NCBI GenBank assembly: GCA_017506865.1
Contig: JAFCMP010000235.1
Coordinates: 558,001-622,000, forward strand
From: Tribonema minus
Lineage: Eukaryota; Sar; Xanthophyceae; Tribonematales; Tribonemataceae
DNA: 64,000 nucleotides
Reading direction: 5' to 3'
The position numbers were made by a program, and so were the translations under genes. Shown here in pieces: positions 1-64,000 of the stretch. Every line of letters starts with the position of its first letter. Positions within the stretch are counted from its first letter, which is position 1. The notes beneath the pieces are model-generated. The model was not told where the DNA came from, did not search any database, and saw only the letters and a list, made by a program, of their open reading frames with translations.

Positions 1-1767
1 GCCCGCCGCCAAGGGCCCCTCGCGCGCCGAGCAGATGGCCGCCGCCAAGGCCTCCAAGGAGAAGAAGAAGAAGATCGAGATGTCCAACGTGAGTCGCACG
101 CCTTTCTCTCATCTGTTCGCGTGTGTACGTGCGCCGCAGCTGATGGTGCGCGCTGGCCGCAGCACTGACCGCCGAATTGCGGAGCGTCCTCACATTCAGA
201 AAGCTCAAGTTGAAGCTGCACTGCGCATGTCGCACGATCGCGCGCGGCGCTGATGATGCGAGATACGCTGCACGCCCCCCCTCCCCCCCGCCCTCCATGT
301 GGTGCTGATGCCGTCATGCAAAATGCGCCACTACCTCACCACCCCCCCCCCCCCCTGCCCGGTCCCCCAGGTCGTCTACGAGGTCAAGCCGTGGGAGGCT
401 GACCAGGACCTCAAGGCGCTGTACGAGAAGATCAAGGAGAAGTGCGCCATGGACGGCCTCAGGTGGTCCGAAGGTGAGCGGCACACGGTGGTGCGCATGG
501 CTGACTTCCCTTGCGGCATGTTTGAGTGAATGAATGAATGCAAGTTAGTTGTGAAACCGCTCATGATTCACTTCCATTCATGACGAAACCGCCCATGAAT
601 CAAGAGAGTGCGCCGTGGATGGACATTTTCAAGTGGTCTGGCTGTCAGCGCCGTCCTGATGCATGACGGCCCGTGCAGGAACCACAGAACATTGAGTAGC
701 AGCGCCCAATTCAGATTTTGTAATGCGCACGCCCATACGCCTGGTGCGTGTATGAGGTTGTCCGGAGCTTATATTCCTCTACACGAGGATGATCAGAGTC
801 GCCAGGCTGGACTCGATGGAAAGTCGAAGCTGCATTCATACATGCGGGTAACAAGTTCATACGGGGTGAGGACGGCAGACGTGACTGCGCCATGAGTGGC
901 CTCTGGCGTTCTTGAAGTGAGACTGACGCGATGACGCGGCTTCCATAGTGAGCCCCTGACGCCGTCCAGCTGCCATGCGGTGCAGGGAATTGTCAATCGG
1001 CCGTGGGCACGCGCACTTTGGAGTAGATTGCCAGCGAGCCGTTCCTCATCTCTATCAAAGTGGGACTTTGATTCAGTTCGTGCACGACTGCGTGAGCACT
1101 GGCCACTGCGGCGCCAACAGCGCGTCCGTGTCGCAGCGACACGGCACCGATGGTTACGCGCATCGAGCGGCACTGCGGGACAGCCTGGGGTGAAGGGCGA
1201 GGGTTGCGGTTAGACCTACGTTCAATCTGACCCTAAACCCTGACTTCAGGGTGGTGAAGGGTACCAGTCACTGCCGAGCAGGCTCTGCGGTCATGTTTTT
1301 CCGCGCTACGTACCGAAGCCGGCCAGTCAAGCGTGGGGATGGCTGCGAAGCACGGGCGCTGCTGCACCCCTTGCCCGCGTGCGCCGCCCGCAGCTGTGCG
1401 CGTGCGGGCCACGGTGTCCGGATCAGACAGATACATTTCGCGGCATCGCACTCATCAGAACACAGACGCGCTGCTATCATCGCGCCAGCTGTCTCAAAGA
1501 ATCCTAGATGTTGCAGCGCAAATATCTGCCATTGGAACGTTTCTCCAGACAACCGCGCGGGGCCACATTCTGACTCCCCCCCCCCCCCCCCCATTCCTCT
1601 TTGCAGGCTGCACCCTCGCGCCTGTCGCGTTTGGCATCAACAAGCTCGTCATCGCGTGCACCATCGAGGACGACAAGGTTGGGCTCAACGACATCTCCGA
1701 CATGATAGAGGCGCTGGAGGACGACGTGCAGTCCGTTGACCTGGTCAACATGCAGCGGTGCAGCTAG
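1..1767 (+). CDS. EEF1B: eEF1B guanine-nucleotide exchange subunit (beta/delta type), 3' part; 5' end outside window
   Basis: This is the C-terminal exchange domain of elongation factor 1B, which reloads eEF1A with GTP during cytosolic translation. Three exons are visible: 2-88 (frame open from the left edge, ending in a Lys-rich linker), 371-473 and 1607-1767. Introns are GT-AG, and phases 0 and 1 join cleanly. The spliced protein reads VVYEVKPWEADQDLKAL, then DGLRWSEGCTLAPVAFG, then a DDKVGLNDISDMIEALEDDV stretch, matching the known family core (V-KPWDDETD, LVPVAFGIKKL, EDDKVGTD). It ends in MQRCS and a TAG, slightly longer than the usual C-terminus. Both acceptors follow C-tracts (342-355, 1576-1592). 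Intron 2 (474-1606) holds a degraded copy of the exon 2 end at 605-641. Beta and delta subunits cannot be separated without the N-terminus. Confidence 0.93.
605..641 (+). repeat. Echo of eEF1B exon 2 end inside intron 2
   Basis: The stretch reads like the last 40 bases of exon 2 (433-473) with substitutions: GAGAGTGCGCCGTGGATGG against the exon's GAGAAGTGCGCCATGGACGG, followed by AAGTGGTCTG against AGGTGGTCCG. It lies about 170 bases downstream of the real exon end, in the same orientation. I judge it roughly 70 percent identical by eye. Confidence 0.6.
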
Positions 1768-2947
1768 AGCGCGCGCACAGCATTCGCGCTAACACCAATA
1801 TAGCAACCTTTTTTGTACCTGTGAGAGCAGGACCCCGTCATCCGCGTCGCTGCTGCTCTGCCTTTGGTTGTCTGGTGGTGTCAGGGATTGTTTGTTTTGT
1901 CACAGTCTAGGGCTTACCGGGCGCGGCGCCGTCGATCGGCCCAAAACCCATAGAACTGTGCCATGGGTCGTGGATGCGGTGCGTACGCTCGCTGTTGGAA
2001 TATAAACTGTTTCAATACCCAGGGTAGGACAGGGGTCTAGCTCTACAAGTATTTTCTTTGGCACATTCTGCCAAGTTCTCAAATGCCGAGCAGCAGTTAG
2101 CTCCTGCACAGGTGCTGCAGCCACTGTGTAGTAAAGTGCGCCTGCCTTTTGACAGGCAAGTTGACGACAATGAAGGTGTGGGCGCACTCTATGCCATTCG
2201 CGTGCGGGTGTCATGTTCCATGGGACAGGGCAAACTTGCTTATGCTCTGTGCAGATTCCTTGCAACCCCGCTGACTCATTGTGACACGCATGAACATCAC
2301 GACACACCCCTGACGTAGTGCCTGATGGGTACCCGCAGTGCCAAATGCGACTTGCTAATGCGCACACATACATGCAGGCAGATTCAAATGAGATGTCGGT
2401 ATAAGGGATCTGCCGAGATCCTGCTGCCTTCCCAAGTCGCGGTATGGGCAGTCTGTGCTCCTGTATGTGTGTCAGCAGCATGCATTGCTACCACATTTCA
2501 GCTCATATGCTTTGGCATGGTGAATGCATGCTGTGAACTGGGCAGTGCTGTAACATTGAGTAGAGTCACCCGATGCACAGCAAGCGGGCATGCAGAGAGC
2601 GGGAGACTATGCGCTGTAGTCACCATCATGTCAGTAGCCTCGCATGTATGTTGACATTTGCCGTGTACACAACACATGGAAGTATTATTGTTGCAGAAGG
2701 TAGGGGCGGCCTGGCCTGCCGGCAAGGGGGGCAGAGGTTCTGCCACGTGCTCGTCACGCGCATTGCGGAGCGGGCAGACATGGACCACCGCATCAAGAAG
2801 CAGCGATGCTCACCGCGGACATGAAGTCAAAAAGGTCTGAGTACCAGACTGAGCCATAGGCAGACATTCTTTCTCCGTCAGAGAAAATACAGTCTGCAGC
2901 CCGCCGCCTCCTCCACCCCGCCACACAAACATCGACTAGCACGCACA
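1768..2947. other. Intergenic region between convergent genes
   Basis: This 1.2 kb separates the ends of eEF1B (+) and the phosphagen-kinase-like gene (-). Base composition is less GC-biased than in the genes, and open frames are short and overlapping. No recognisable gene, RNA or repeat was seen. It must contain both 3' UTRs and poly(A) signals, but no single signal stood out. Confidence 0.6.
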
Positions 2948-8386: not shown

Positions 8387-8654
8387 TGTTGCGTTGCGGC
8401 CGCTGTGTGTGGCAGATTCTCGGCGACAATGTGGCGTTTTTCACTTTTCAATGATCACGCAGACTTGCTGGCTGGCCTGCAGAAATTGTGTAACCTTATG
8501 GCCGCAGTGCGTTTGGCTCGGAAGACGCACACACACACAAGCAATGTCGGTTCTGTCTTTCACCTTTTTGCCTTGATGGCAGTTACTTCTGTTACTTTCG
8601 GTTACGAACATGAAGAGAAGCTGTGCTGTGTTTGTGAGGTGAGCCGCAACAGCA
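8387..8654. promoter_or_regulatory. Shared divergent promoter region (phosphagen-kinase-like / androglobin-like)
   Basis: Only 268 bases separate the two start codons, so promoters and both 5' UTRs must lie here. It is clearly less GC-rich than the flanking exons and has a short CA run at 8529-8539. No TATA box or other core motif could be assigned with confidence. Confidence 0.6.
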
Positions 8655-11600
8655 ATGCCGCCAAAGCCGAAGGACGGCAAGGCACTCAAGAAGGTCAAGA
8701 GCGATGCGGAGGAGGGAGCGGAGTACATCAGGGCGAAGCTGCCTCCTCTGCCTCCATGGTCAGAGGTGGATGCACCTCCACCGGAGCAGGTTGCTGTGCG
8801 AAGCCTGGGGCTTGCTTTCGCCACAGAATTTAGTAGCGATCAGATCAAATCGGAAGACTGGTTCTACACTGGTGAGAATATCTTCGCAGACCCCGACTTT
8901 GAATTGCCAGCCCCGATAGCCGGCTCGGTCTGCACGTGGGCCAGAGCCAAGGATCTGGTGCAGCAGCGCAAGCCGGATGAGGTTCCAGCAGCTGGCAAGC
9001 AGAAGGCCAAGCCCAAGGAGGCCGCCAAGGCCAAGCCAGGCAAGGCCAAGGGGCCGCCGGTCATGCAGGAGCGCAACGAGGATGACCAAGGCAATCTGCT
9101 GCCGCGCATCGTCCTGCTGCCCGGCGAGGACGCCGCCGCCGGGACCGCCTCCACCGCCGCCACCTCCCCCGCCACCGCGGCGCGCCCCCCGCGCTGCCTG
9201 CACAGCGCCCTCGCCCCCGGCAGCTCGTGCTGCCAGCCGCTTGTCTCCGTCTTCGAGGCGGTGGCACGGCTCAGCACGACGCTCGCCGACTGCGTGGACG
9301 CGCCGTTCCTCTGGGAGGCCATCCACCCGCAGGACGCAAGCGGCCGACCCGTCTACAACCCCGGCGGCAGGCACGCGGTGCGCCTGTGGGCGGCGGGCGC
9401 GTGGCGCAGCGTCGCCGTGGACGACGCCGTCCCCGTCAGCGCCGGCGGCGCGCCGCTGCTGCCGCACGCCGCCGGCGGCGGCGGCGGCGCGCGCGAGCTC
9501 TGGCCGCTGCTGCTCTCCAAGGCGCTGCTGAAGCTCGCGGCGGCGGCGGGCATGCCGCTGCCCGGCGCCGCCGCCGCCGCCGCGCCCGCGGAACCCGGCT
9601 CTGCGCCGCCGGAACCGTCCGCGGAAGACACCGCGGCAGCGCACTGCTGCGCGGCGCTGAGCGCCTTCTGCCTCAGCGCGCTCACGGGGTGGCCGACGTG
9701 GGTGGAGGCGGCGCCGGCGCTGGCGGCGGCGGCGGCGGGCGCGCCCGCGCTGCCGGCGCGCGCGTTCGCGCTGCCGGACGTGTGGCGCGAGGACGCGGCG
9801 TGCGAGCGCGAGCGCGAGAGGGAGGAGGACAGGCGCCGCAGGCAGGCGCTGTTCCTGCACAAGCAGCGGCGGCCACGGCGCGTGGAGCGGCGGTTCGCGT
9901 CCGCAGAGGAGGTGAGGGGTCGCTGCCGCGTGCGCGCGTGCACGTGGCTGGTGAGGCTTGGTCGCAGCCGCTTGTTGAGGGGTTTTCTGAGGGGATGCAA
10001 ACGAGAGACATGGTAGATCACCAGAAGGTATGTTAGTATGAGCACTCACTGGCAGCAGCGGCCAGCCAGCCGGCTGCGGAGGGTGAGGCGAAGGCGGGGA
10101 GGCGTGGCAGTGGTGAGGTGGCGCCGCCGCGGAGGGTGGCGATACAGCAGCTCTGTGGCAATGCAAGGGGCAGGTTTGCTCAGTGCTCAGTAGGATGTGA
10201 ATTAGCAAGATTAGATGCCATGCCAGCATGCGCACGCCATCTTTCATGGTGCGGAGCATCAGGCGTTCAGAAACTGCCCAGAGGGTGGAAACTGACGACA
10301 GAGAAAGCGCCGGACGTTCGTGTTGACCGCGGGGGCTGCTGGGGGGCTGTGATGCGGTTGCAGCGCGGCGCCAACGCACGCAAAACGTCACGGCGCTGCG
10401 CGCGCCGGGTGGCCACAAATCAGCCGCAGGCGCAGCTCAATGTGGGCACGCGCAACTGCAACAGTGCACATCGCCGCCGGCAAACGACCACTGTCACTAG
10501 CACCCAGCGCCAGCTGTGGCGAAGGTGGGCGAACGCGCAGCCGTGAATGCTACGCTCAGGGGATGGGCTTGAAAGAGGGCTCGGTCTGCCGTTGGGATGC
10601 ACGCTGCAGCAGCCGCCCGTGCCGGCACCCAACAACACGGCACTCACCCCCGCTGCGGCGCCGGCGAATGCGCGCAGGTGGCGGCGGTCGAGCGCGAGCG
10701 CGTGCAGACGATGGCGCGCGTCGCCGCCGCCATTGACGCGCCCGTGCGCGGCAGGGCGGCGCTCGTGTGCTGGGCCGACGGCACGGCGCTGCCGGTGCTC
10801 GCGGCGTCGACGGCAGCGGACGACGGCGCGCCGGACGCAGTGCTGCTGCGGTGGGAGCAGCCCGCTGGCGGGAGCGGCGACGGCGGCGCGGCGGCGGCGG
10901 CGGCGGCGCCGTTCGGCGACGCGGCGCCTGCAGGTGCGGCTCTCCGCGGCTCTGCAGTCGGAGTGTTGAGAGCGTCATTGCATTCAACGGGCATTGCGTC
11001 GCGTTAACATCGCGTGAGCTGCGTCATGGCCCTGAACTGTCCTTGTCAGGTGCAAAGGACCAGGCGACGGCCGCCGATCGCGGGCGCATCTCCGCGTCGC
11101 CGCTCACCCCGCTGCCGCCTCCGATGCGCGCGCAGGCGCGCCCGCAGCAGCAGCGGCGGCGGAGCCCGTGCTGTCGCAGCCGAATGCCGTCTGGGCCGAC
11201 GCTGACGCCCTCGCACGCGCCGCGGCGGTGCACGTGGTGACCACCACGCAGTCCGGCCTCGCGCACGCGGCGCGCCTGCGCTGCCACTGGCGCCCCAGCG
11301 CCGCGGCGCCGCGCGCCTCCGCTGTCGCCGCCACTGCTGCTGCCACAAGCGCCGCCGCCGCAGCGGCCGAGCCGGAGGGCGCCGCTGCGCCGGCGGCGGT
11401 GGGCGCCGCGGGGGGCGTGCTGGTGACACATCCCGGCGCCTGCGCGCCCGCGTATCTGTGCGTGTACCCACCGCCGCCACAGCCGAGCGCTGCAGCGGCG
11501 GCGCCAGCGGAGGCGGGCAGCGAGGAGGCGCCGCCGCTGCCGCCACCACCGGCGTACTGCGACCTGGTGGTCGTGCTGCACGCGGACACGCCAGTCGCGG

Positions 11601-13975
11601 CAGCGGCGGCTGACGGCGGCGCGACGGCGGCGGATGCGGCTGCGAAGATGTGCATCATCGCTCAGAACGGGCCGGCAATGACGCTCCAGGAGCTCACGCC
11701 CTGCGAGAGCGACCCCGGCGCGGGCCGCGGCGTGTACCTACGTCTGCGCCACCACCACCGCAGCGGCAGCAGCGGCGGCGGCGGCGGCGGCGGCGTGCCG
11801 TGGTCGGTGGCGCGCTGCCGCGTGCGGTTCGACGGCGGCAACGACGCGGCTGCAGCGAGCGCGCGCGTCTTCCGCCTCGTCGCCAGCAGCGGCGCGGGCT
11901 TCGCGGTGAGCGTCCACTGCTCTGCGCGCGTCGCGCTCGGCGACCCGTGCGACGTGTGGCCCGGAAGTGGCGCGGGGCGCGGCTCCGCGTGGGAGGACGG
12001 CAGCTACGATGCCGCGCCCGCCGGCGACTGGCGCGTGCTCTTCCGCCGCGTCCTGGGCATCGTGCCGGCGCCGCCTGCTGCGGCGGCGGCACCCGCGCTC
12101 GCTGCGACCATCGCCGCCAGCGCTGCTGATGCCGCGGATGACGGAGCCGCAGCTGCAGAGGCGCCGAGGCCGCCGCAGACGCTGTCGGTGCGGCTGCTGC
12201 TGCACGCGGCGGATTGGCGCGCCGCCGCCCGCACGCAGCTGCTGCTGCTCGACGAGGCCACCGGCGCCTCCACGCCGCTCGCGCCGTGCGGCGCGCAGGC
12301 GTTCCGGCTCGCCGCCGGCGAGGACCGCACGCTCGTCGCGGTGCTGCGCTGCGGCGGCGACGGCGGCAGCGGCGGCGGCGGCGGCGTGGCGCCCGGCGCG
12401 TGGCGGCTGCGCGTGCTGACCGAGGGTGCCGCGGCGCTGCGCTCGGAGGCGGGCGGGACGCGCCTGCCCGCGCAGCCGTGCGACTGGCGTGCACGCTTTG
12501 GCGGCGCGGTGTACGCGCCCAACCGCCACCTGCGCCTCTTCCGCGACGTGCTGGCGGCGGTGGCGCCGGGGCCGCTCGCACTGCGGCTCACATGCGCGCG
12601 CCGCGGCGGCGGCGGCGGCGGCAGCGGCGGCGGCGGCGCAGACGCGTGTTCGGATGGCCGCGACAGCGGAGGAGCTGACGCTGCAGATGCGGCGGAATCG
12701 GCAGCAGCGGCGGCGCCGTGGGTGAGGCTGACGGTCACGGACGAGGCCTCGGGGAAGGTCCTGGCGGCGGCGAGCGGCTGCGGCGAGGTGGCCATCCTCA
12801 GCGTCGCGCCGCAGCTTTCCGCTGCTGCAGCAGCAGCGATGGCGGCGGCGGCGGCAGCGAGCGAGGCGGCGCCGCCCACGGCAGCGGCTGCGGCGGCGCC
12901 CAGCAAGGGCGGCAAGGGCGGCAGGTCCGGGTCGGTGAGCGGCAAAGGCGCCAAGGGCGCGGCCGCGGCGGCAGCGGCGGGGCCGCCCAACAAGATCATC
13001 GTGGAGGCGGTCATCGACGAGCTGCGCATGGAGGTGCTGGCGGCGTGGCGTAGTCGGCGGCCGCACTACTTCTCGGGTAACGCGGCAGCGGCGGCGGCGG
13101 CTGCGGCGGCGGCAGCGCCTGCCGGTGCTGCGGCGGCGCTGCCATTGACGCCGCCGGCATTGAAGGAGGGTTTCACAGAGGCGGCCGTCGCTGGCGCGGG
13201 AGCTGCGCCCGCTCTGCCTGTGTGGTATATGGACGTGGCGGCGGGCGCGGAGGTCGCTGCGAGCCACGACTGCGCGCAGCTGCAGCTCAGCGCCGCGGCG
13301 GCGGCGCAGTGGGAGGCGGCGGAGGACGGGCGCGCCGCGCGCGCGGCGGCGCTGCTGGCGCAGGCGCTGCGCGGCGGCGCAGCGGTGGAGGCAGCGACTG
13401 CTCCAGACGATGCAGCATCCCCGGATGTACAGAGCAGCACGAGTGCGACAGCTGCAGTGCCGATGCTGGCGGCGCCGCCGCGGCCCGCGCCGGCAGAGGA
13501 CGCCGCTGCCTGGCTCGCAGCGCGCGCAGCAGCGCTCAAGCTGGACGTCGCGAAGGAGACCGCGCGACAAGCCCTGCGCGCCGCGCTGCCGCCGCAGTGC
13601 ACCGCCGCCGCCGCTGCGCTGTCCGCGGAGCCCGGTCCCACCGCGACGGTGCTGTCCGCGGACGAGCGCGCGGCGCGCGCCGCAGCGGCGGCGGCAGCGC
13701 TGCAGGCAGCGCTCGACGCCGCCGCTGCCTTCACAGCGGAACGCGGCGGCGCCGTTGCCGCCGCCGACGCGGAGCTGCGGCTGCAGACGGAGTTCATCGC
13801 GAAGTGGCACGAGCACGGTGCTGCGGAGGCGGCGGTGCCGCTGCAGCAGCGCGAGGCGGTGGTGCGCGGCATGGTGGAGCGGCTGGCGGCGCTGCGCGCG
13901 GAGGCGGCGGCGCGCGAGGAGGCCGCCGCCGCGGCGGCCAAGAAGGCGGCCAAGGGCGCCAAGAGCGCGGGATGA
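8655..13975 (+). CDS. ADGB: Androglobin-like / calpain-7-like protein without a recognisable globin domain
   Basis: Three exons fit: 8655-9911, 10678-10933 and about 11136-13975 (the last acceptor could instead be 11050, but 11136 keeps the long frame). This gives about 1450 residues against about 1670 for human androglobin. The N-terminus has LPPLPPWSEVDAP and an FADPDFELPAP stretch, then a calpain-like block with AVRLWAAGAWRSVAVDD and ELWPLLLSKALLKLA, as in androglobin. The protease Cys box is absent. The long third exon carries C2-like beta segments (FRLVASSGAGFAVSVHC, GAWRLRVLTEG, PWVRLTVTDEASGKVL), a Lys-Gly linker and a basic Ala-rich helical end (KKAAKGAKSAG), in the order expected for the androglobin C-terminal half. 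I see no globin helices and no IQ motif. Androglobins are linked to motile cilia and sperm. Long Ala and Gly tracts interrupt conserved parts. Confidence 0.78.
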
Positions 13976-37307: not shown

Positions 37308-37574
37308 TCAAAGTGAGTGAACTTGAAGATCTGCTGTTTTTTTGGCCGGTCCAGTGCTTGAGATCTGTTTTTTTTTTGGCCGGTCCAGTGCTTGACGTCT
37401 GCAGCCTGAACCCTCCATGAGCAGCTCGTAGTAGTCGTAGGGGCAGCGCCCTCCCCTCTTGAGCTCCAGACTGAGAGAGGCAAGGAAGTCCGACACCTCC
37501 TTCTCGCTGGCCTGCTCTCTTTTTGGCTTGATCACGGTGTGGTAGCAGTTGTTCGAGTCCCTGTATCTGACCAT
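37308..37574 (-). pseudogene. Copy 3 (C-terminal fragment) of the unknown gene family
   Basis: It reads CYHTVIKPKREQASEKEVSD, LASLSLELKRGGRCPYDYYE and LLMEG, corresponding only to the C-terminal third. TTTTTTTGGCCGGTCCAGTG is repeated twice near 37337 and 37371. The fragment abuts an EHD 5' fragment on the other strand. Confidence 0.65.
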
Positions 37575-37760: not shown

Positions 37761-37769
37761 CGCTCTGGT

Positions 37770-40190: not shown

Positions 40191-40258
40191 TGTGTTGCAT
40201 GTCTGCACCACCCGTCTTGCCTTCAGCCTTCGCGTCCTTGCCACCTTGCAGGTCGCAT

Positions 40259-47917: not shown

Positions 47918-50900
47918 TCACTCGTTGCGCATGTACGTCATGGCCAGCAGGTCGTTCATGGCGTAGATGGCGGGCCGCGTGGACTCGAACGCGTTGAGGC
48001 GGCGGTGCAGCGACAGCGCGTGCGCGCGCACCTCGGCGCTGCCGTGCATGAGGCCGCACCTGCGGCGGCAGCGGCAGCAGCGGCGGCGGCGGCGGCGCGT
48101 GGTCTATTGAGCAGGGAAAGAGGCATGTCAGCAGCAGCAGCAGCAGCGGCGGCGGCGCGTTGTGTAGGAGATTCGAGTGGGGACAGAGGCATGTCAGCAG
48201 CAGCAGCAGCAGCAGCGGCGGCGGCGGCGGCGGCGTGTGGTGCATGAGAGTCGAGTGGGGACAGCGGCATGCATGTGGGCATGAGCGGCGGGGAAAGCGC
48301 GCCTGCGCTGCCAGCGCACTGCGGCGCCACTGGCGCGCGACGCAGGCAGTGGACAACTGATGCCATCGTCCAGGACAACGACATGGTGGTGCTTCTGCAG
48401 TGACTGCAGTGAGGCCTGCATGGTGGCGGAGGAGGCTGAACGCATCACGCACAACTTGCACAGAGAGCATGGCTACCGATCGCATCACAAACGAGGGCCA
48501 ACGGCACTTGCGTGCACTGCACTGCGGCTGCCAGCAAGCCAGCAGGCAGGGCATCTTTGGTTCTGCGCAGCAACTGGCTTCATGATGCACAACGAAGGGG
48601 GACCAGGCGTAGAATGCGTGCTTTATGCAAGCGCCCGGGGGACGCCGGCAGCGTATCTCGTGCTGACCGGCAGCCAACGAGGGTTAGGCACAGCTGCAGT
48701 GGAAGCTATAGCTGGCAGGCAATGTTGAAAGCTGCCTTCTAATACGGACCGCAGCAGCGTGCTGGAACAGGCGTTGGAAGCTCGTGACCGTCACTCACCC
48801 CAGAACGAAGATGCCGCCTTTGCTCTCGGGCATGAGGCCAAGCAGCACCTGCAGTGACGCCTCCGACTGCAGCGCCGTGTCCAGGTCTCTGAAGATCTCC
48901 TTCACCTGCAAGCGCACACGCGCAGCACAGCACCGAATCCATCGTGAGCATATCATGTGTAACATATGCGTTTGACAATGTTGATGACAGTCCAGAAAAA
49001 CGAACGTGAACGTCAAGTTCAAGTACACGTCCTCTCTATCTTCTGAATCCAAAAGACCACCCAGCAGCACGCAAGTTTTGGAGCCCCCCCCCCCCCCGCC
49101 CCTGTCATAATCGTACCTCCACTGTCAATACGGCAGAAGGATTTTCTGAGGCACATGTGGAATCGCGCCACATCATTACAATGCAACGCCACATCCAGCT
49201 TGAGACCAGGCCACTTGTCACCACCACGAATAACAGCAAAAGCAACTTTTCATCTCACGAAAGCGGATTCAGTCAAGCTGCGCCACAGCGGCTGGCAGCG
49301 GCGCGTCAGCCAATGAGACGCGACAGTAGCGCTGCGGCAGCGCTCGCTAGCGACGCAAGCATCAGCTGCCGCGTGCGTGTGAGGCGCGCCCGTTGAGGCC
49401 GCCCACCCTTTCTGAGCCGCTGCACACACCTACATAGCCCTAACCCTAACACTGAAGCGCGGGCGATCGCAGCGCCTCGACTCGAGTGGATCCAGGACGG
49501 CGACACGAAGACATGAGGCCAAAGCGCAGACTACACCGTGCCCATTGAGGACAGCGAATGCGTGCGCACATACAATGGCAGTGCAGGAGGGCCAGAACGC
49601 AACTAGTTACCGTCCTGATCCTCCAGCCCTCCGCGAACGGCGAGAGCGTCAGGCGCCGCAAAACCATGCCCCCGCCGAAAGGAATAACCAGTGCATGCGC
49701 GCGCACTCTTTGACAGAGCAGCAGCAGGCCAGATTGCTACAACAGCAGAGCCAGAGCGCAACAACGTGCATCGCGATAAAAAATCCCCCCACCTCCTGAT
49801 CGTCGAGCCCGCCGCCGTCGGCGAGCGTCAGGCGCCGTACGTGCCGCCTGAGCTGCGCGCCGCTGATGCCGCCGGCCAGCTCCATGTAGCGCCACGGGTC
49901 GGTCGTCTGCGGGCCCGGGAAGTCCGGCAGCTGCGCGCGCGGAGCGGGGCGGCACGCGCGGCGGTGCGGGACGTAGTCAATGGGGAGTGTGTGGGGCGCG
50001 AGAGTTCGGCAGCGATTGCGCAGAGCGGGAGTGCCGGATGCGGACGGCGGTGACGCGTGGTTCTGGGTTCAAATTGAGAAGCAGGTGCGTCAGAAAGGTG
50101 ATGTCCGCACAATGGTGGGCACGCGGCGGCGACGGCCGAGGCGCTGGGGCGGCGCGCGTCCTTGCAAGCAGTCGCACTCGCCGGCGGTCTCGTACAAGCA
50201 GTCGGCACCGGACACACGAAAATATGCCACCGTGGAGTACGGCCTGGGCACTGCCGACCGCGGCAGGCCTGTGGAGAATGCGAGCACTGGCACGCATCTG
50301 CTGCAGAACAAGCAGCGCCACAGGATTGTCATTGGGTGGGTGGGACATGGCGCTTGCGGCGTCACGTGCAGCGTCTGCCTGGCCCGCCTTGTTGATCGAC
50401 ACATCCCCGAGCAGCATGCGCGGCTTGGCAGGGGATAGGCATTCTTGCTTCTAGCGTCTGCATATAGCAAGCACAAAGTGTGCCGCGTAATCACGCGAGC
50501 CGCGCTGCATTACACAACGCCATCAGCCGGCGGTGGCGCTGCCGCCGCCGCGCAGGCACGCACGCAGTGTCAAGGCACACGCGCGGCGCACCTGCTTGAG
50601 CTCCCGCAGGCGCCACTTGTTGGAGGGGTGGGACTTGGTGGCGGACTGCGGCAGCGTGTTGGGCGACATGGGCGCAAGGCCCACGTCCAGCGGGCCGTCC
50701 GCCGCCGCCGCCGCCCCCGCCACCGCCGCCGCCGCGAGCGAGACCTGCGGCGCCAGCAGCCCCGTGTCCTGCGCAGGCGTGGGAGAGGTTGAAGTGAGGA
50801 CAGATGACGTGAGTGGTTGAAGTACGGACGGGCGAGGTGGGTGGCGGTGAGCAACATGAGTGCAGCTTCTTGGTTGCACGAGTAAGGACAGCAAGAGCGG

Positions 50901-53900
50901 AACAAATGCCACCCCGAACGTGGCCGCAAGCGAGACTTGCGGCGCCAGCAGCACCGTGTCCTGCGCAGGCACATAGGAGATTGAAGTACGGACGGGTGAG
51001 GTGAGTGATTGAAGTACGGATGGGTGAGGTGGGTGAGAGCACGGTGGCGGTGGGCAGGAGGAGTGGAGCCAGTTGCACGAGTGGGGACGGCGAAGACAGA
51101 CGCGTCAGTAAGGACAGTAGGGAGAGCGTGGCGAGGCAGCACGAACCCAACCCTAACCCCAACCCTACACCCCTGCCCCTTACCCTAACCCCAACGCAAA
51201 AGTGGTCGCCGTCGAGGCCGGCGGCCCCAGCAGCCCCGCGCCCTGTGCGGAGCGGGAGTGAGCCAGTCAAGAGAAGTCGGATGAGTGAGCGCAGAAAGTA
51301 CGATGGCGATGGGTGAGACGGCCAAGACGGGTGACGCGAGTAGAAACGGCGGGCGCAGTCAGATCGGCAAGAAGAGTGGGACGAGCAAGGGGGGGGAGGG
51401 GGCGCAGCGCATGCCGCGTGAGGTACGCCCGTTGCCATGTGAACCTGCGCGACCGAGCCCCCGCTCTGTCAGAGGGCGCACGTGTGAAGCAGGCATCTGC
51501 CCTAAACCCTAACCCCAGCCCCTGAACCAAATTCTTACCTGCCCCTGACCGTAGCAGGCGTGAGTGTGTTACCAGACAGCATCGGCGGCGGCGGCGCCAG
51601 AGCGGCGTCATACGGGGGTGCCGCGTGCGCAGTCATGGGCTGTCGCCCTGCACAGCCAAGAGGGTCGGCACCGCTTGCAGGCGCGTGATCGTTGAACACG
51701 GGGGTACTGCTTGCGAACGTGACGCGCGACGCCAGTAAGCGCTCGCTGCGGGCGAGCGGAAGCCTGCAGCTCGCGGCCTGCGGCGCGGCGCGGCGCTCAC
51801 AGGGACATACCCTGACCCCATTTAGCCCCCGATCCCGAGCGCAAATGGTGTGGCACCATGCACGCCATGGCAACACCGCAGCGCACCGTGAACGGGGGAC
51901 AACTAACCTGGCCCCCTGCGACGTCCGCGAGGCCCTGCGGGCGGTCAAACCCTGACCTTAGCCCTAGCCCTAATCCTTCCAACTAATCCTGAGCGCCACG
52001 GCAACTCCAGACAGACCAACTGACCTGGTCCATGGCGAGGTCGACGAGGCCCTACGTGTGATTCCACGCCCTAACCCTCACCCCAATCCTAACCCTAACC
52101 CTAGCCCTAGCCCCAACCCCAACCCCCTAACCCTACCCCTGAGCACCACTGCACCTCTAGATGAAAGCACCCAACTGACCTGGTCCACGGCGCGGTCGAC
52201 GAGGCCCTGCGTGTGGGGTCTCGCACCCTAACCCTGACTGTGACCGTAACGCTAACCCTAGCCCTAGCTCCACCCCCAACCGTAAACGTACCCCTGAGCG
52301 CCGCTGCAGCTCCAGACAGACCAACTGCAGACACACCCACCGACCTGCTCCACGGCGTGGTCGACGAGGCCCTGCATGTGGTCCGCGCACCCTGACGCCA
52401 ACCCCTACCCCTAACCCCCTAACCTCAACTTCAACCCAAACCCTGCTTACCCTAGCCCCAACCCCAACTTCAACCCCAGCCTGGAACACCGATGCAACTG
52501 CAGACGAAACCAACTGACCTGGTCCACGGCGAGGTCGACGAGGCCCTGCGTGTGGTCGCGCAGCGTCGCGCGCACCCACTGCTCGCTCATGCCCGCGGAG
52601 ATGCCCGCGAGGAGGCGCGCCGCGAACGCCGCGTCGTCCTCGCACGTCAGCTGCTCCGCGCTCACCCTGCGCGCGGGCGGTGGCAGAAGGCCTCGTGAGC
52701 GCTTGCCGAAATAGTTGTGGCGTCGGGCGTTGGATGGCGGGGGAGGCGTGCTGAGCGCGCGCGCGGCAGCGGAGGTGGCGTGCGCAGCGCCGTGCATGCG
52801 GTCGCGCCCTCAGGAGCCTCTGGGAAACTGCCTCAGGAGTCTCAGGGAAATCGCACCGTGGGAAGTCTACTGCGGCAGAGATGCGCGTTGCTGCATGCGA
52901 GGGACTCAGATATCTCCTGCCACCACGCGATGAACGTCATCATTGTGTCGGACTTGTGTGCGGAGGGGACGCGCCAGCCAGGTCGGCTTAGCGCATAGCA
53001 CAGCAGCTGGTCTGGCACACGCCATATGCGAGCACACGCGATCATCCCACACCCTGACGCTGATGTGAATTCGCTGTTGGACATGTTTCACACGACTTCA
53101 GTTCTTCGCAGGCTAGGGGCAGGACTGGGGCAGCAGATCTGGGTTGAGTTAAAGGGCTGCCGCTCTTGCGCCCATGCAGGCGCTGCTGACCTTGACACGT
53201 TTGCAAACAATGGGCTCCCGTTGCATGACAGAGCATAGGGCGCGCCGCCGCACAAGCACCTGACTCATGACTGCAAGTGACTCGCTCTCCGCGATGGCGC
53301 CCCAAATACATACATACATACACGCAAATTGCGCAAGTACACACACATACTATCGTAAAATACACTCATGATGCCACAATCTGCACAATGCCTCAGTCTT
53401 GGCAATGACACTCATGTTATCAACAGTACACATGTCACACATATACACACAATCATGAATGCTTTCTTCAAACTCTACACAACAGGGGTGACCTCACCTA
53501 GCCGGCGGGCGCGGCGGGCTCCTCTTGCCCTTCTGATCGTCGAGCGCTGCCTTCTCGTCCGCCGTCAGCATACATATTTCACACAAATATGAATATATAC
53601 TTCTCCAAGTTCATACTTCTACATCAAGAGTGACTGGCCTCACCGAGCGGGCGGGCGCGGCGGGCTCTTCTTGCCCTTCTGGTCGTCGAGCGGCGCGCGC
53701 TGCCTTCTCATCATCCCGAATATTCAAATACATCGTGCCATTCGCGCAAATGCACACAAACAATTTGAGGTATGGAAACATGATCCAAATCTCATAAATC
53801 AGGATGACTGGTCTCACCTAGCGGGCGGGCGCGGCGGGCTCTTCTTGCCCTTCTGATCGTCGAGCACTGCCTTCTCGTCAGCCCGAATATTCAAATACAT

Positions 53901-56900
53901 CATGCCATTCGCACAAATACACACAAACAATTTAAAGTGTGAAAACATGATCCAAATTTTACAAGTCAGGGTGACTGGTCTCACCTTGCCGGCGGGCGCG
54001 GCGGGCTCTTCTTGCCCTTCTGATCGTCGAGCACTGCCTTCTCGTCAGCCCGAATATTCAAATACATCATGCCATTCGCACAAATACACACAAACAATTT
54101 AAAGTGTGAAAACATGATCCAAATTTTACAAGTCAGGGTGACTGGTCTCACCTTGCCGGCGGGCGCGGCGGGCTCTTCTTGCCCTTCTGGTCGTCGAGCG
54201 CCGCCTTCTCATCGGCCGTCAGCGCGGTGCCGGTGCCGTTGGGCAGGTCCAGCTGGCACAGCAGGTCCCACCAGCTCGTATGGGATTCGAACATGGGGTT
54301 CGTGACCTGCGCACAGCCAATGCAGCCAAGGGGGTGGTCAGGGTGTGTGTGTGTGTTAACTGGTGTGGTGTGTGGGGAGGAGGCAGGGGCATGTGTTTAA
54401 ACTCGTGTGGAACTCGAACATAGGTTTTGTGACCAGCGCGCAGCCGATGTGGCGGAGGAGGCAGTGGTCGGGGGGGGGGGGGGGGTGGTTGCAGGGAGGG
54501 GAGCTGGGGGGAAAAGGGGGGGGCATGTCTCATATTCTCGTGTTGGATCTGAAATGGGGTTCATGACCTGTGCAGCCAACGCGAAGCAGGGGGTGATTGG
54601 GGTGTATGTGCTGCAGAGAGGGGGCGGGGGGTTACGACACTGCTCAGCAGCCCCTGCTGTGCGTGATGTTGAAATGTTTATTACAGCTCCGACCGTGCAG
54701 CCAACGCATCGCCACAGCATACTCGCGGCCCACGGTCACACCAGTCAGGCGACGTCGAACAAAGGTCAAAAACGGATCAGCCTGCGCCGCTCACCGGGGT
54801 GGTGTATGAAATGAGAAATTTTGAAGACGTTGCCTGATGCACGTTGCGCGCATAGGCGATTTGGCGACAAAACGACGCCTGCCGTGGCCGCGCACAGCTC
54901 CGGCGCACATGTTCCTGTGTGGTCCGCACGTGAAGCCCAGAAAGCGTGATTGACTGAACAAGGCAGTGCTGAGAGTTTTGGGTGGGTCTCACCCTAACCC
55001 TGACCCTAAGTCACCGCGCACGCGGCCCGCGGCGCCGCGGTGCGCCCTCGGCGAGCGGCCTCCGCAGCGCTCAGACGCGGCTGCGCGCGCTCTGCTGTTG
55101 TGCGCTGTCGCGCGTGTCTCACACGCAAGCACGCAAATCGCGATCCGACCATACCTTGGCTACATATGCGACACCTGTCTTAAGTACTTCTTGAAGTACA
55201 GAAGTTCATGAAGTACTTCGAAGTACTTCGTTTTGGAGTAGTTCCCGGAATACACGCGGTGCTCACCCCCGCAATGTAGGCCGGCGTCTCCAGGAAGGCC
55301 AGGTCGCTGAGGTTGGCGTAGGGGAACGTGCGGCGCACGATGCCGCGCAGCGGCGGCGCGACCATGGCGCACGCCGCCAGGACCAGCTTGCCGACGTCGC
55401 CTGCCGCGTTGAAAGCAGGGGGAGGGGTGGGGTAGGCAGAGAGAGGGTGTCAAAAGTTTGGCAATGAGATGGTGCCGGGGCAGGGAAAAGTGGGGCGTGC
55501 AGGAGCGCGCCCTAACCCTAACCTAACCCTTAAACCCTGACTCTAGCCCAAGGTGATGCGCTGCGGCACGCCGACTTTGCCTGCGCCCTGAAGGGGGGGG
55601 GGGGGGGGCGTGCATGAACCCAGGGAGCACCAGTGGCACCATGGCGCCTACACGTGTACGGTCCCGCAAACAAGACTCCGAGAGGGACTGGTTGCGGCGG
55701 ATTTGGGTGGTCCGCCGCAGTCATCTACGCAGGCGCGTGTCGAGCATGAAGCCATCGCAGCGCCGTGCGCGTGCATCAACAGATGTGCGTGCGACACCAG
55801 CAGCGCGTGAAAGTACGCCAAATGTCAGGGTCCCCCAACACCTCAGCGATGCGCACAAATGCAGGCAGCGGCGGCGCGGCGCGCGCACCTGCGGCGTGGT
55901 TGCACCCCACAAAGAGCACGCGCTGGCCGGTGATGCAAAATCACAAGTGCACGTTCGTGTCGCTGCATCAGCATGCTGGAGTGCCCGATCCTGGCCTCAC
56001 CCTGACCCAAACCCTAGGTACACATATCTGCGGCGCAGCTGTGCTGGCCACAAAGCATATAAATGTTTGACTCGTGGCCAATGACTGCAGCAGCGGCGAC
56101 CACGGTTATTGGTGGAAGGCACTTGCTGCTAGCCACTCCTTGTCACCTAGAGCTCTACAACCTTTTGAATCATTTTCATATAACGAGACACGAGCATACG
56201 ATCGGCAATCGGCGGCGCGGCGCGCGCACCTGCGGCGTGGTTGTAGCCCACAAACAGGACGCGCTGGCCGGTGATGACGGCATTGTAGATGCGCATTGCG
56301 GCGGCGCCAAAGACGGTGAAGAGGAGCGTCACCGAGGGCGTCAGCGTCTCGTCGGGGGTGGAGTGCAGGGGTATCGCCGTGTGCACCTGTGCATGAAAGG
56401 GGGACGGGGGGGGGGAGCGTACAAGGTTGTGGAGCTTTCTGGGATGTGCTGCGGTGTTCGCTGTGGTGCTTGAGACCAGTCCACGCTGGTATCGACGCCT
56501 CATTCATGGTGAGATATGGGTGTAAGATCGCGTTGGACTCAGGGATAGCGTCACGTTGGACCTGAGCGGGAGACGCAACAGCGCGTTTGCACCATGTTAC
56601 AGACGATCGACGTAGCACTGCCATGCAGCGTTGCGCAAGAACCATCCGAAAACAAATAGCATACGCAGGACATGCAATGCTCCGGTCGGCAGCAGCGCGC
56701 GCGCGCTCGCAGCTTCTGCGTCCCGTACTCGAACGTCGCGGTGTGCGTCCACTTGTGCGGCAGGTGCTGCTGCACGACGCCGCCGCCGAGCGCTCACATC
56801 AGTCAATGCACAATGAACGAGGTGCTACGAATGCTTTGGTCGGCAGCAGCGCGCGCGCGCTCGCACCTTCTGCGTCCCGTACTCGAACGTCATGGTGTGC

Positions 56901-58047
56901 GTCCACTTCTGCGGCAGGTGCTGCTGCGCGACGCCGCCGAGCGCGCGCCCCGCGACGCCGCGGCGCATGACGCGCCGCTCCCACGCGAGCGGGCGCGGCA
57001 GCGCGGCGGCGTCCGCGGCGTTGATCGCCGCGTACAGGCCCGCGAGCACCGCGGGGTCCGTGCTCTGGTAGTACGCGTCGAGCGCGATGATGAGCAGCGG
57101 GCGGAACATCTCGATGAAGTGGTGGCGCGAGCACACGGCCATCGCCTTAACGACGGCGCCGCGCCGCACCGTGGGGTCGTCCTTCTTGCGCACGAGGTTG
57201 ATGCAGTAGAGGAAGGGCTCGGGCTCGGCGGCGGCGGCGGCGGCGCTGCCGTCGGCGCCTGCGACAACGGTGGGAAAGGCTGCAGTTGTCAGACATCGGG
57301 CTGCGGTGCGCTGCGTACTGCTACGTGAGCCCGCGGGCGCTGATTCTGAGACAGTGCAGAAACTGACAACGTACAAAACCGCCGGCGCAGGGCGCAAGGT
57401 CGAGCGCTGATGCGACTTCCGAGGCACTCCGCGCGCCCTGCCGCCGCCGCCTCCTCGCCGCCACACCATTCGTGCGTCAGCCCCATGCGCTTGGACAGCA
57501 TTGCTCAGCGACATGACCTCAACCGCCTCCTCATCAGGGGCGTCCCGCATGGCATCCAGCGATGCCGCGACGCCGGCGCGCGCCTCCAACAGACCGAAGA
57601 AGAAGGAGATTGCCCCCCTTCAAGAGGTGACGCACCTGCCGACACGCCTACACCTCACACAGAGATGGCAGAAGGGGGACCTTCTACTTCAAAGGAGATG
57701 TTCTTCGACGCCTCAAACAAGGCGGCGAGATGAAGGAGACCTTCTACGAGGAGATCATCTTCAAGAGTTGACGCACCTGCCGCAGGCGGCGCCGGGTCCG
57801 CGCCGCCCGCCTCGCCGTCGCCCTCGTCCGCGAGCGCGGCGCGGCGCGACGCCTTGTTGAGGAACATAACGGTCCAGTCGAGCGAGTGGTTGTGCGCGCC
57901 CTCCGGCAGCATGTACTCCGCGAACCAGTCGTCGCGGTAGCCGGGGACGGGGCCGGGGTACTTGTGGCGAAGCGTGGAGCCTGTGTCGATGTCGAACTCC
58001 GCGAGCAGGATGTAGTCGACGAGGCGCGGGCAGTCGCCGCTGGCGCC
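47918..58047 (-). CDS. DENN-type protein with Afi1 N-terminal and SPA domains; first exon not located
   Basis: Ten exons with matching phases: 57777-58047, 56867-57258, 56230-56386, 55267-55400, 54152-54306, 52519-52666, 50592-50768, 49793-49930, 48799-48905, 47918-48059; 606 residues without the 5' end. Exon 1 shown here has LVDYILLAEFDIDTGSTLRH, YPGPVPG, AEYMLPEGAHNHSLDWT and VMFLN, the Afi1 (Arf3-interacting) signature. Then YCINLVRKKDDPTVRRGAVV and KAMAVCSRHHFIEMFRPLLI. The SPA part has TGQRVLFVGYNHAAG, VAPPLRGIVRRTFPYANL, YIAGVTNPMFESHTSWWDLL, RLTLADGGGLDDQE and ESKGGIFVLGCGLMHGSAEV. In fungi Afi1 links Arf3 to polarised membrane traffic, and DENN folds often act on Rab GTPases. Upstream of 58047 a C-tract marks an acceptor, but no convincing ATG exon was found. 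A coding-like stretch at 57470-57590 does not fit by phase. Confidence 0.9.
48062..48270. repeat. Tandem repeat of about 60 bp, three units, in the last DENN intron
   Basis: Each unit is a GCAGCAGCAGCAGCGGCGGCGGCG run followed by a TGT/GGT stretch and GA(G)TGGGGACAGAGGCATGTCA or a variant. Units start near 48062, 48126 and 48192, and the CAG/CGG run lengthens from unit to unit. It directly adjoins the acceptor of the final exon (48060). Confidence 0.85.
49618..49665 (-). repeat. Degraded echo of DENN exon (49793-49930) end
   Basis: GGCGAGAGCGTCAGGCGCCG near 49639 matches GGCGAGCGTCAGGCGCCG near 49819 in the exon, with similar CC(A/G)CCGAA-type flanks. The boundary and donor are not clearly preserved. 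Confidence 0.5.
50959..51255 (-). repeat. Two echoes of the DENN exon 50592-50768 start, acceptors kept
   Basis: The plus-strand real boundary at 50768 reads GCCAGCAGCCCCGTGTC|CTGCG. Copies have boundaries near 50959 (GCCAGCAGCACCGTGTC|CTGCG) and 51242 (CCCAGCAGCCCCGCGCC|CTGTG). On the minus strand each retains CAG before the exon-like part. Flanks also recur (GAGATTGAAGTACGGACGGG, GAGTGATTGAAGTACGGATG). Confidence 0.8.
51140..52470. repeat. Telomere-like CCCTAA tracts in a DENN intron
   Basis: Degenerate CCCTAA/CCCCAA/CCCTAG runs occur at about 51150-51195, 51500-51520, 51945-51985, 52066-52140, 52226-52285 and 52385-52480. The longest, near 52085-52138, is almost pure repeat. The unit matches the TTAGGG telomere type. 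Several tracts start a few bases from the inner end of an exon echo. Confidence 0.85.
51908..52562 (-). repeat. Five-unit array of a DENN exon end (real exon plus four echoes)
   Basis: The real exon ends at 52519 (plus-strand GACCTGGTCCACGGC, GTCGACGAGGCCCTGCGTG). Echo boundaries lie at 52345, 52180, 52025 and 51908, spaced 174, 165, 155 and 117 bases. Each keeps about 40 exon bases and a minus-strand GT donor (GTCAGTTGG, GTCGGTG, GTCAGTTGG, GTTAGTTG). In three echoes homology ends after the same exon position (...GTGTGG-TC-CGCA or a variant), and CCCTAA-like DNA follows. Confidence 0.92.
53498..54222 (-). repeat. Five-unit array of a DENN exon end, 167-bp period (real exon plus four echoes)
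   Basis: The real exon ends at 54152. Echo boundaries lie at 53985, 53818, 53644 and 53498; the two closest are exactly 167 bases apart each. Every unit has CTCACC on the plus strand (GT donor on minus), GCGGGCGCGGCGGGCTC, TTGCCCTTCTG(A/G)TCGTCGAGC and about 70 exon bases. Then an AT-rich spacer follows (AATATTCAAATACATCATGC, CACAAACAATTTAAAGTGTG). The units at 53985 and 53818 are nearly identical, so the array is young. Confidence 0.95.
55889..55938 (-). repeat. Echo of DENN exon 56230-56386 end, donor kept
   Basis: About 50 bases match the exon end on the plus strand: GCACCTGCGGCGTGGTTG, CCCACAAAGAGCACGCGCTG and GCCGGTGATG, with about five differences. The GT donor context is identical, and 15 bases of intron-side sequence (GCGGCGCGGCGCGC) also match. 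Offset is 341 bases. Confidence 0.9.
56679..56791 (-). repeat. Echo of DENN exon 56867-57258 end, donor destroyed
   Basis: About 110 bases match 56833-56942, offset 154. Landmarks: GGTCGGCAGCAGCGCGCGCG, CTTCTGCGTCCCGTACTCGA, GCGTCCACTT and CGGCAGGTGCTGCTG. At the splice boundary (56713) the plus strand has CAGCTT where the real junction has CACCTT, so the minus-strand donor GT is CT. Confidence 0.93.
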
Positions 58048-59613
58048 CTGGGGGGTGGGGGGGGGGGGGGGGGGAGGTGAGCGGGGAGCGCGTCGTTCGG
58101 CGCCGCGATGTGATTGCGAGGCGTTGTGACGGGGTAGGTGGGTACAGTGGCGTGTTGGCGTGCCGGCGTCGGTGTTGTGCGAGTCGCGCAGGCGTGCGCA
58201 CGCGCCGCACGGTGCTCGGCGACCCGCGGACAGCCGGCCGCTGCGCAATGTGGCAGCGACGGAGAAATGCGATGGTCGGCGCTGCTGGGCGGTGCCGCAA
58301 CCGCTGCGCTGCGGCGCGTCTGAAGCTGTGCGGTGGGTGCGCAGGCGTCACGAAGCGACCAAGGCGTGCATGCGTGCAGCGTACTGCCCAATGTAAATGT
58401 TGAAGTTCACTACAGCAGCACACAAACATAATTGGGAGCTGGACAGTTCCCATTGGCCTGCTCATAGTGCAAAGGCTGTCACTACTCCATTTGCTTCGAT
58501 GCGCAGCGTGTCAGTCGCTGAGAAATGTGGACGCAAACCGCAGTCGATGAGTGGTCTACACGCAGAGGGACGCAACCACCTTGATGTCCCGCCTTTTGCA
58601 TGCGGGGATGCGGTCGTGGAGCTTCTCACAGCGACTGATCAATACGGTGTAAGATATGAAACTGCAGACTGTGCTGGGGGAAGTACAGCTGTGACACCAT
58701 GGGTGTGGCTGCACATCGTCATACCCGTAGTCAACATTGAAAGGCACGGCTTTGTAAATCCTGGCGCGAGCATCAACACGCCTCGCTACCAGCTTGCAAA
58801 GAAATGGCTGACTGTTGAACAGTAGTTGGGGTTGGCCGGGGGTGGCATTTCCGATGAAAAACTTCTGACATGGAGAGTGAAGCACAGTCGCCTTCAGCAG
58901 CTGAAGTGAAGCACTGTTGCCTGCAACAGCTGATCTAGATACAAAAAATGGATTGTCTTTACCTGAGACTTCAACAATGGCAAAAAGCGATAACACCTGA
59001 CTCGCCTAGCATATAAGGATGGCGTGCAGGAACACGTGCGTCTGCTGAAACACGAAACGTGCTCTTGGCTGAAGTCTTTTGCGAAGCTGCTCACGGCAGT
59101 CGCCAAAAGAAGAACTCCCCGAGTTACACCCAAGTTGAACTAGCAAGGCGGTTTTTTGAGCTTTGCAGCACGTGCATTCCAGCATTGTTGTGAGATTTTC
59201 AAAGCCTTACCGTCCTGGCCAGCTTGAACTGCTGGAACCGCTGGTCAAGCGGCTTCGCCCTTGCTGTGCTCATCCTCTTTGACGACTCCATGCCACTTCC
59301 GGGGGCCCGCAGGGCCCGCTGCCAATAGTGCTCCTCCCCAGCCCCAACAGCTGCCCTGCTCCTGTATAAGAAGTGAACCTTCTGGTCAGCCTCTCTCTCC
59401 CTTCTTGACTTAGCTCGGGTGCAAGGTGGTCCTTCGTCTGTGTGTTCAAGGCCAAAATGAAACCGTCATTTCAGGGAGAAGTGAACAGAATTGAAGTGAC
59501 ATGCAGCAGGCGAGGACGCAGCTGCGCCAACAGCAAGCACCTGCGAGCGAATAAGTTTGCAACCTGAGCTGCACTACAGACGTGCTTTGAGTTGCTGCTG
59601 ATTGGAGGCGGCC
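58048..59613. other. Divergent region: unplaced DENN 5' end, promoters, weak ORF
   Basis: 1.57 kb between the first resolved DENN exon (-) and the coiled-coil gene start (+). A G-run at 58050-58074 (C-tract on the minus strand) sits at the DENN acceptor. The missing DENN exon probably lies at 58100-58500. A 142-residue ATG-started plus-strand frame at 58397-58825 shows no recognisable motif and is overlapped by an open minus frame. I do not call it a gene. Confidence 0.5.
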
Positions 59614-62600: not shown

Positions 62601-64000
62601 CCGAACCGGCGCTGCCCCCGCAGGTGGAGCTGGAGTCCCTGCAGGAGCAGCTGCGCGTGCGCAAGGAGAAGCAGTACCAGCTGCTGGAGAAGCTGCAGGG
62701 GCAGGAGGAAGCCAAGCGGCAGGCGGAGGACCAGGTACTGATCAGCCATTGTGTAGAGCGCTGCTGCTGTTGTATGTGCTGAGCGCTGCCTTGAGGATGT
62801 GCTGTAGTTGAGCGCTGCTGTTGTCTATACTGAGCGCTGCCTTGAGGATGCCGACAGCTGCTGGAGGAGCTGCAGGGCCAGGAGGAGGCCAGGCGGCAGG
62901 CGGAGGACCAGGTACCGCTGGAGCGGTGATCAGTTGTCGTGTTGACCGCTGCTGCTGTTGTATATACTGAGCGCTGCCTTGAGAATGCGGACAGCTGCTG
63001 GAGAAGCTGCAGGGCCAGAAGATGGCCAAGCGGCAGGCGGAGGACCAGGCATGGACCAGTGGCGGGGGCGCTGACTAGATGTCGTGTCGAGCGCTGCTGT
63101 TGAATGTGGTCGATGCTGACGATGGGGCTGAGCACTGATCAGTTTTCATGGCGAGCGCTGCTGACAATGGGGCTGAGCGCTGACTCAGTTGTCGTACTGT
63201 TGTGACGTTGAGCGCTGCTGACCCCGAACCCAGGTGCCGTGTCTGAGCACTGCTGGTGTAAACTTGAAGTATGCTGAGCGCTGTCATGAGGATGTGGACA
63301 GCTGCTAATGAAGTTGGAGAGGTCCGGCAGAGCTCAGGCGCAGGTGGAGCACCAGACTAACCCTAACCCTAAACTAACCCTTATCCTGCTGATCGGGGAT
63401 GAACCTCAGTAACGCAACTGAGTGCCTATGTTGCGACTGGCGCTCACCCTCCTTTAGTGCGGGCTTGAGGTTGACTCAGTGTCAGCTGTTGGAGAACGCG
63501 CTTGACCAGGAGGAGGCAATGCGGCAGGCAGAAGGTCAGGTGGTGGCCAGTGATGACTGATGGAACGTAGCTGAAAGGTGGTGGTGTGTTGAGTTCTGGT
63601 GTGATGCTGAGCACTGCTCGACAGCTTCAGCAACGCCAGCCACAGGGGGGGGGGGCAGGGGAACAGAGGTCATCGCGCGGCACGCAGAGGGTCTGCAGCA
63701 GCGCTCTGACCATTAGTATTGACACGTTGGCAGCATCGGCAGTGCCGAGCGGTGCTGACATCACATTGAGCGCGGACGTCATCATCCTGAGCACTGCACC
63801 GCCGCGCATTCAATCGGAGTGCCGGCCGCCGCGACAGTCGTGGGCCAAGCAGCTGCACTGTGTGTGCTGCCGCTGCAGGCGCAGTCGCAGCTGCACACTG
63901 TTGTTGGTGGCACAGCACCACAAAAGCTCTTCGCTTCATGACTGCATGTCACCGCAGGGTCAGGGTCGAAGCCTGTTCAGCGTCGGAGAGAAGGAGTTGA
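59614..64000 (+). CDS. Coiled-coil protein of unknown function; 3' end open or uncertain
   Basis: Well-supported exons: 59614-59805, 60077-60196, 60774-60869, 61492-61638, 62210-62278 and 62624-62734, all phase 0, together 245 residues. Possible further exons are 54-nt units at 62858-62911, 62995-63048, 63302-63355 and 63486-63539, then 63879 or 63958 onward. The start MATMMSPDLMPTMAESLGGG precedes an almost continuous heptad coiled coil (EALKMKDEQLRILQEQNSQL, RLAAEEENRTLRETVFEAQG, LRIMTDQNAELLRLLEAEEA, LESLQEQLRVRKEKQYQLLE). Regular helix-only composition suggests a structural, cytoskeletal or axonemal protein, but I do not recognise the family. GCGGGCGCAG-type Ala stretches (AARAAADAAAAVRDLEALRG) fall in exon 4. 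The far end, near 63958, has GQGRSLFSVGEKEL in frame up to the window edge, so the gene may continue. Confidence 0.8.
61173..61360 (+). repeat. Two echoes of coiled-coil exon 4 start, acceptors kept
   Basis: The real exon starts at 61492 (TGCAG|GCGGCGCGCGCGGCGG). Echo starts are 61328 (TGCAG|GCGGCACGCGCGGCGG) and 61173 (CGCAG|GCGGCACGCGCATGGC), about 155-164 bases apart. Upstream flanks also repeat (GCTTTCTCGCCAGCTGCCATGTGC, ACGTTCTTGCCAGCTGCGATG; CATCGGCGGCGGCGGCGC). Three 3' splice sites are thus available. Confidence 0.88.
62681..63539 (+). repeat. Tandem 54-nt mini-exon array (one parent segment plus four copies)
   Basis: The last 54 bases of exon 6 (62681-62734) encode LLEKLQGQEEAKRQAEDQ. 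Copies, each exactly 54 bases in phase 0 after an AG: 62858-62911 LLEELQGQEEARRQAEDQ (donor GTACCG); 62995-63048 LLEKLQGQKMAKRQAEDQ (GCATGG); 63302-63355 LLMKLERSGRAQAQVEHQ (no donor; telomere-like tract follows); 63486-63539 LLENALDQEEAMRQAEGQ (GTGGTG). Spacers share GAGCGCTGCCTTGAGGATG. The first copy is almost surely splice-competent. Confidence 0.93.
63355..63385. repeat. Telomere-like tract abutting a dead mini-exon copy
   Basis: ACTAACCCTAACCCTAAACT begins directly after the last base of the 54-nt copy ending at 63355, replacing the donor. Further ACCCTTATCC follows. Confidence 0.85.

Follow-up and report, generated by a model that had tools for sequence, protein, structure and literature searches.

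The 64,000-nucleotide stretch of Tribonema minus DNA presented here (referred to throughout, at its full length, as the window) raises the question of why so many of its introns carry copies of the end or the start of their own neighboring exon, which we call echoes, and whether the splice junction has any part in making them. We propose that it does not. The copies lie predominantly in direct orientation, they are present in introns, intergenic DNA and exons, and they span junctions no more often than random placement does. We consider it very probable that T. minus undergoes a genome-wide, junction-blind process of local duplication in direct orientation, of which the intronic copies would be the decaying leftovers.

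The window holds 35 near direct repeat pairs less than 1.5 kb apart (E ≤ 1e-4). The sample used for pair counts comprises 224 kb, namely the window, 40 kb of flank and 12 other contigs of a 158-Mb draft assembly of 554 contigs, in which the contig studied has 1,106,895 bases. This sample contains 124 direct pairs versus 8 inverted pairs, and the control, one order-2 Markov sequence built in 2-kb blocks, contains 0 of either, so that the intronic, same-orientation copies of neighboring exon edges described in the original prediction do exist. Across 66 arrays, the best pairs are spaced 57–1319 bases apart (median 146.5), which fits the 85–340 bases first given, and are 70–94% identical (5th to 95th percentile). 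A nucleosome-sized period was considered and rejected, as the spacings are broad over 75–200 base pairs (bp) and beyond. Near-repeat pairs occur in introns, intergenic DNA and exons, and pairs that lie wholly within a single compartment account for 6.2% of intron DNA and 4.6% of intergenic DNA. All five of the exon-internal pairs less than 500 bp apart have periods that are multiples of three, as called by a predictor that requires open frames, and in low-complexity coding DNA two pairs separated by about 1320 bp have periods not divisible by three. The earlier proposal of genome-wide local duplication that leaves copies of many ages is supported.

Gene models came from a small gene-finding hidden Markov model (HMM) trained on the studied DNA itself and retrained on 304 kb, which is also the junction-coverage sample. 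Four retraining rounds were used, as six drifted to tiny exons. Over the whole sample the HMM learned donors that are about three-quarters GT and one-quarter GC, and a strongly GCAG acceptor. Single-exon Pfam matches identified eEF1B, EHD and a chaperonin, with a 2OG oxygenase below the cut-off, and protein matches identified the DENN protein, a desaturase and argininosuccinate synthase (ASS). Two EukProt proteins with Trinity transcript names match predicted proteins at 100% (P0001; rounded, as one residue differs) and 97% (P0182) and, judged by this identity, probably come from T. minus. The HMM tends to call echoes exons. The first models (50 genes and 254 introns, excluding genes with less than 300 coding bp) were freed of 23 predicted exons taken to be echoes, the rule being that of two exons that are copies the shorter is removed if it is ≤130 bp. 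Two echo mini-exons of 27 bp persisted in DENN, and the donors beside 54148 (DENN) and 79008 (ASS) are missing from the counts because the models were broken at the arrays there. These gaps touch the shift, spanning, identity, exonic-length and first fragment tests, and the main tests were therefore repeated on corrected models (242 introns), in which DENN and ASS were joined and 13 exons of <60 bp in repeat DNA, possibly including true short exons, were dropped.

Donor-side and acceptor-side junctions are both copied, as predicted: the first models have 28 spanned donors and 23 spanned acceptors, a list that includes some echo mini-exons, and 26 and 21 of these, respectively, have at least one copy in which the splice dinucleotide is kept. 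There is, however, no excess at junctions. In the first models repeats span 27 donors and 23 acceptors (out of 254 each) versus 24.3 (standard deviation 3.9) and 25.3 (4.0) in 500 random shifts within genes, and in the corrected models 18 and 13 of 242 versus 22.1 (3.7) and 22.6 (3.5) in 1000 shifts. The same was found when 50-base fragments were compared with their own intron (z ≥ 5), leaving out low-complexity fragments, exons of <45 bp (junction) or <120 bp (interior), and introns of <150 or >3000 bp. The first models gave echoes for 12/109 donors, 8/101 acceptors, 35/378 intron interiors and 1/116 exon interiors (negative controls, in this order, 0, 0, 2, and 0), and the corrected models 16/113, 7/100, 39/374 and 1/119 (controls 0 throughout). 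Junctions and intron interiors are indistinguishable in both sets (20/210 vs. 35/378, odds ratio 1.03, P = 1.0; 23/213 vs. 39/374, odds ratio 1.04, P = 0.89). A stricter earlier version of the fragment test gave 9/132 donors, 7/118 acceptors, 6/149 intron interiors and 1/141 exon interiors. Targeting of junctions was rejected on the equal rates given by random shifts and intron-interior fragments.

The two parts of an echo have diverged to different extents. For exons of at least 60 bp, the exon part is 91.4% identical at donors (1030 bp) and 90.2% at acceptors (387 bp), and the intron part is 85.1% (1717 bp) and 85.4% (569 bp) identical, respectively. The exon part diverges less, as would be expected if one of two copies is constrained rather than both being free, and the divergence points to an exon that stays constrained while its intronic copy drifts as neutral DNA. 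Pooling 40 echoes, restricted to exons of at least 60 bp with an open frame and to copies of at most 400 bp, gives 74 synonymous differences, 101 non-synonymous differences and 1 stop. The synonymous share of 0.42 compares with 0.30 for two free copies (P = 0.0007, which is too small because some of the echoes come from one and the same exon and so lack independence) and with ∼0.45 calculated for one constrained and one free copy, and the copies themselves show no coding constraint.

We propose that local duplication is frequent and acts in direct orientation on introns, intergenic DNA and exons alike, with copies mostly 75–400 bp apart. Copies that break coding sequence would be purged, whereas a junction-crossing copy that lies in an intron would be harmless while the original site is used, which may be why intronic junction copies remain visible. 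The duplications could arise by slippage during replication or by same-strand template switching, their traces being blurred by subsequent deletions. Many arrays appear to behave as head-to-tail tandem duplications, and pairs of at least 85% identity include contiguous ones, ones whose gap matches a flank, and others whose gap is unrelated. Spaced young patches with sharp ends suggest template-switch insertion, or else a tandem copy trimmed by later deletion.

Several observations weigh against this explanation. When every kind of repeat is counted, coverage is 12.7% of introns versus 5.7% of intergenic DNA. Junctions in the corrected models are spanned somewhat less than random (31 vs. 44.7), and donors are echoed above acceptors in the same models (16/113 vs. 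7/100 at z ≥ 5, raw counts that are suggestive only), a bias that was suspected from DENN and that the first models do not show (27 and 23 of 254; 12/109 and 8/101). Several of the youngest pairs (55869, 56676 and 32469) are not head-to-tail; their ends are sharp and the DNA that separates the two copies is unrelated. The stretch of exon within the copies has a mean of 43 bp and a maximum of 79 bp versus the 74–81 bp expected of random units (17 junctions with exons of at least 100 bp, first models; P 0.0004 or less), which points either to a short copied patch or to selection against long exon copies, as they would be spliced in. Finally, the gene models are self-made from the DNA sequence.

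One reading of these points, which we regard as rather unlikely, is that an unusually active same-strand template switching pastes nearby patches of about 40–110 bp into introns, thereby growing the introns and seeding exon fragments. Copies with a long exonic part would then be removed because they would become cryptic exons in an alga whose GCAG acceptors and GT/GC donors are permissive, and this removal would explain the 79-bp ceiling.

The echoes might instead be functional exons, repeated or alternative, that some mRNAs include, which we consider improbable. The HMM predictor did read many of them as exons, 54-bp copies in the coiled-coil gene are in frame, and the deposited T. minus DENN/Afi1 protein (P0121, 970 residues; gene 47704–59273) contains echoes, with doubled or repeated peptides at the echo clusters. 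However, three relatives, P0122 to P0124 (563, 634, and 640 residues), are without these peptides, and one echo peptide of P0121 seems to be a copy translated in a different frame. P0121 appears to be inflated by false exons from echoes, and the absence of its repeats from the three relatives indicates that echoes probably corrupt gene models. The protein search that matched P0121 turned up no DENN transcript. Transcript evidence comes from a single gene, that for ASS in the right flank, in which three donor-side copies lie downstream of the exon at 79008–79259 (two found by tblastn and the shorter one by eye), with GT in two of the three. Two of them have a common flank that is absent from the exon (by eye), and for this reason one echo seems to have been re-duplicated. 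The transcript-derived P0182 joins the exon straight to the next one without any of the three copies, the intron starting at the original donor and ending at an acceptor past the last of them. No new exon or intron therefore arose there, in contrast to the earlier suggestion that such copies are a route to both. The synonymous share of 0.42 likewise fits one free copy, as two constrained copies should give far more.

We give even less credence to a mechanism specific to junctions, in which the splice junction or its transcript (an R-loop or spliceosome-bound RNA) seeds the duplication. About 1 in 10 junctions is echoed (23/213) compared with 1/119 exon interiors, and the bounded exonic part, at 79 bp, would also fit. 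The original prediction had proposed exon interiors as a control, and they are indeed low in both model sets, but this control is biased since a unit must extend across the junction for an exon-interior copy to reach the intron. Part of the deficit in exon interiors is thus built in, and intron interiors are the fair comparison. These are echoed as often as junctions (39/374), random shifts span as many sites or more, and the same kind of repeats is found in intergenic DNA. Hence the view that the process concerns junctions is not supported.

Maintenance of the copies by selection as decoy splice sites, which had also been suggested, is very improbable. Donor copies retain GT or GC in 20 of 23 cases and acceptor copies retain AG in 10 of 12, but this survival is about the neutral expectation (∼0.86 from divergence arithmetic) and the intron parts are as diverged as unconstrained pairs. 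Assembly artefact or false duplication is scarcely credible even in a draft of so many contigs, as few copies can be assembly duplicates when the best pairs of arrays are mostly 70–94% identical (middle 90%), with indels and different flanks.

Junction-crossing copies are clear in four of the six genes in which echoes had been claimed, namely eEF1B, TPR/2OG, DENN/Afi1 and the coiled-coil gene; the EHD copy lies off the junction and those of CCT7 are weak. In eEF1B (plus strand) the exon end and donor at 431–480 have a degraded copy at 599–650 (Smith-Waterman score 45, with 0 of 1000 Markov shuffles as high). The TPR/2OG gene (minus strand) has one echoed donor with three matches and one echoed acceptor with one match. 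The exon end and donor at 19853 are copied within 19496–19816, in pieces at 19496–19554, 19561–19608, 19689–19761 and 19781–19816, with 83–92% identity to 19818–19904 or to each other, and the acceptor-side segment 24436–24492 is copied at 24575–24631 (88% identity, AG kept). In EHD (minus strand) the exon segment 32589–32630 recurs at 32469–32510, 98% identical over 42 bp with sharp ends and unrelated flanks. It stops 14 bp short of the modelled donor and is hence off the junction. A CACT microsatellite (32512–32548) directly adjoins this copy in the intron. CCT7 (plus strand) has two weak copies of the acceptor at 45326 within 45096–45259, one at 45096–45122 (P 0.004) and the other a 21-bp match at 45239–45259 (30.1 bits vs. 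maxima of 0–27.4 in eight controls), and the echo of the CCT7 donor tested was not significant (P 0.149).

The echoed junctions of DENN/Afi1 (minus strand) are the donors 52518, 54147, 56229 and 56866 and the acceptors 50768 and 54306. On the acceptor side, 50731–50896 is copied at 50923–51096 (76% identity, AG kept) and 54275–54351 twice within 54402–54610 (75–77%, one with AG and one with TG). On the donor side, the exon end and donor at 52519 have four copies (51900–52403), as do those at 54148 (53493–54056). CCCTAA-like, telomere-like repeats lie between the copies of the former set, at 51946–52577. The exon end and donor at 56210–56276 are copied at 55869–55935 (94%, GT kept, with 274 bp of unrelated DNA between), and those at 56830–56939 are copied at 56676–56785 (94%, GT changed to CT). 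The coiled-coil gene (plus strand) has donor-side copies, at 62855 and 62992 (within 62855–63050), of the exon end and donor at 62678–62736; the reading frame of the copies is open, and they may be genuine repeated exons.

Outside the genes discussed, a 170-bp segment (36667–36836) is repeated at 37378–37545, 711 bp apart and with 88% identity. Elsewhere in the sample there are young head-to-tail duplications of 375 bp (98%; L011:2515–3265) and 587 bp (99%; L022/L023 joined, C30 sample 10898–12073), which may be either real or assembly artefacts.

If a decaying copy accompanies about 1 in 10 junctions, then false exons arise systematically from exon-like debris in introns, and the deposited DENN/Afi1 model of T. 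minus already appears to be affected. Local duplication also provides a natural test of the choice between duplicated splice sites, in which the original site won in the one transcript-supported gene, and it may be a main source of intron length in this lineage.

A limited search of Tribonema literature titles gave none on such echoes, and we make no claim that they are unpublished. Tandem exon duplication, including that which gives mutually exclusive exons, likewise places exon-like copies beside a parent exon where gene finders call them exons. The T. minus copies, however, are mostly of one exon edge only and drift neutrally, and in the one gene covered, ASS, P0182 is without them. Introners are also repeated sequences tied to the introns of many genes (PMC9860276, in whose main text Tribonema was not found), but each T. 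minus copy derives from its own neighbor. A dispersed introner was rejected for the one array searched, as window:53400–54300 matches only itself in the assembly in a search that skips simple repeats. Intron gain by tandem genomic duplication (as outlined in PMC3443670, on mechanisms of intron gain) similarly leaves two competing splice sites, yet the ASS copies sit inside the intron and do not define it, and this intron does not follow the AGGT model, in which the GT of one copy and the AG of the following copy would bound it. Short insertions that originate by tandem duplication (Messer and Arndt, 2007, as cited in PMC2654908) differ in scale, since the T. minus units are mostly tens to hundreds of bases long and touch about 1 in 10 junctions, and in layout, since some young T. 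minus copies are spaced patches. Such insertions and the T. minus echoes nevertheless have in common copies that are local, in direct orientation and blind to junctions.

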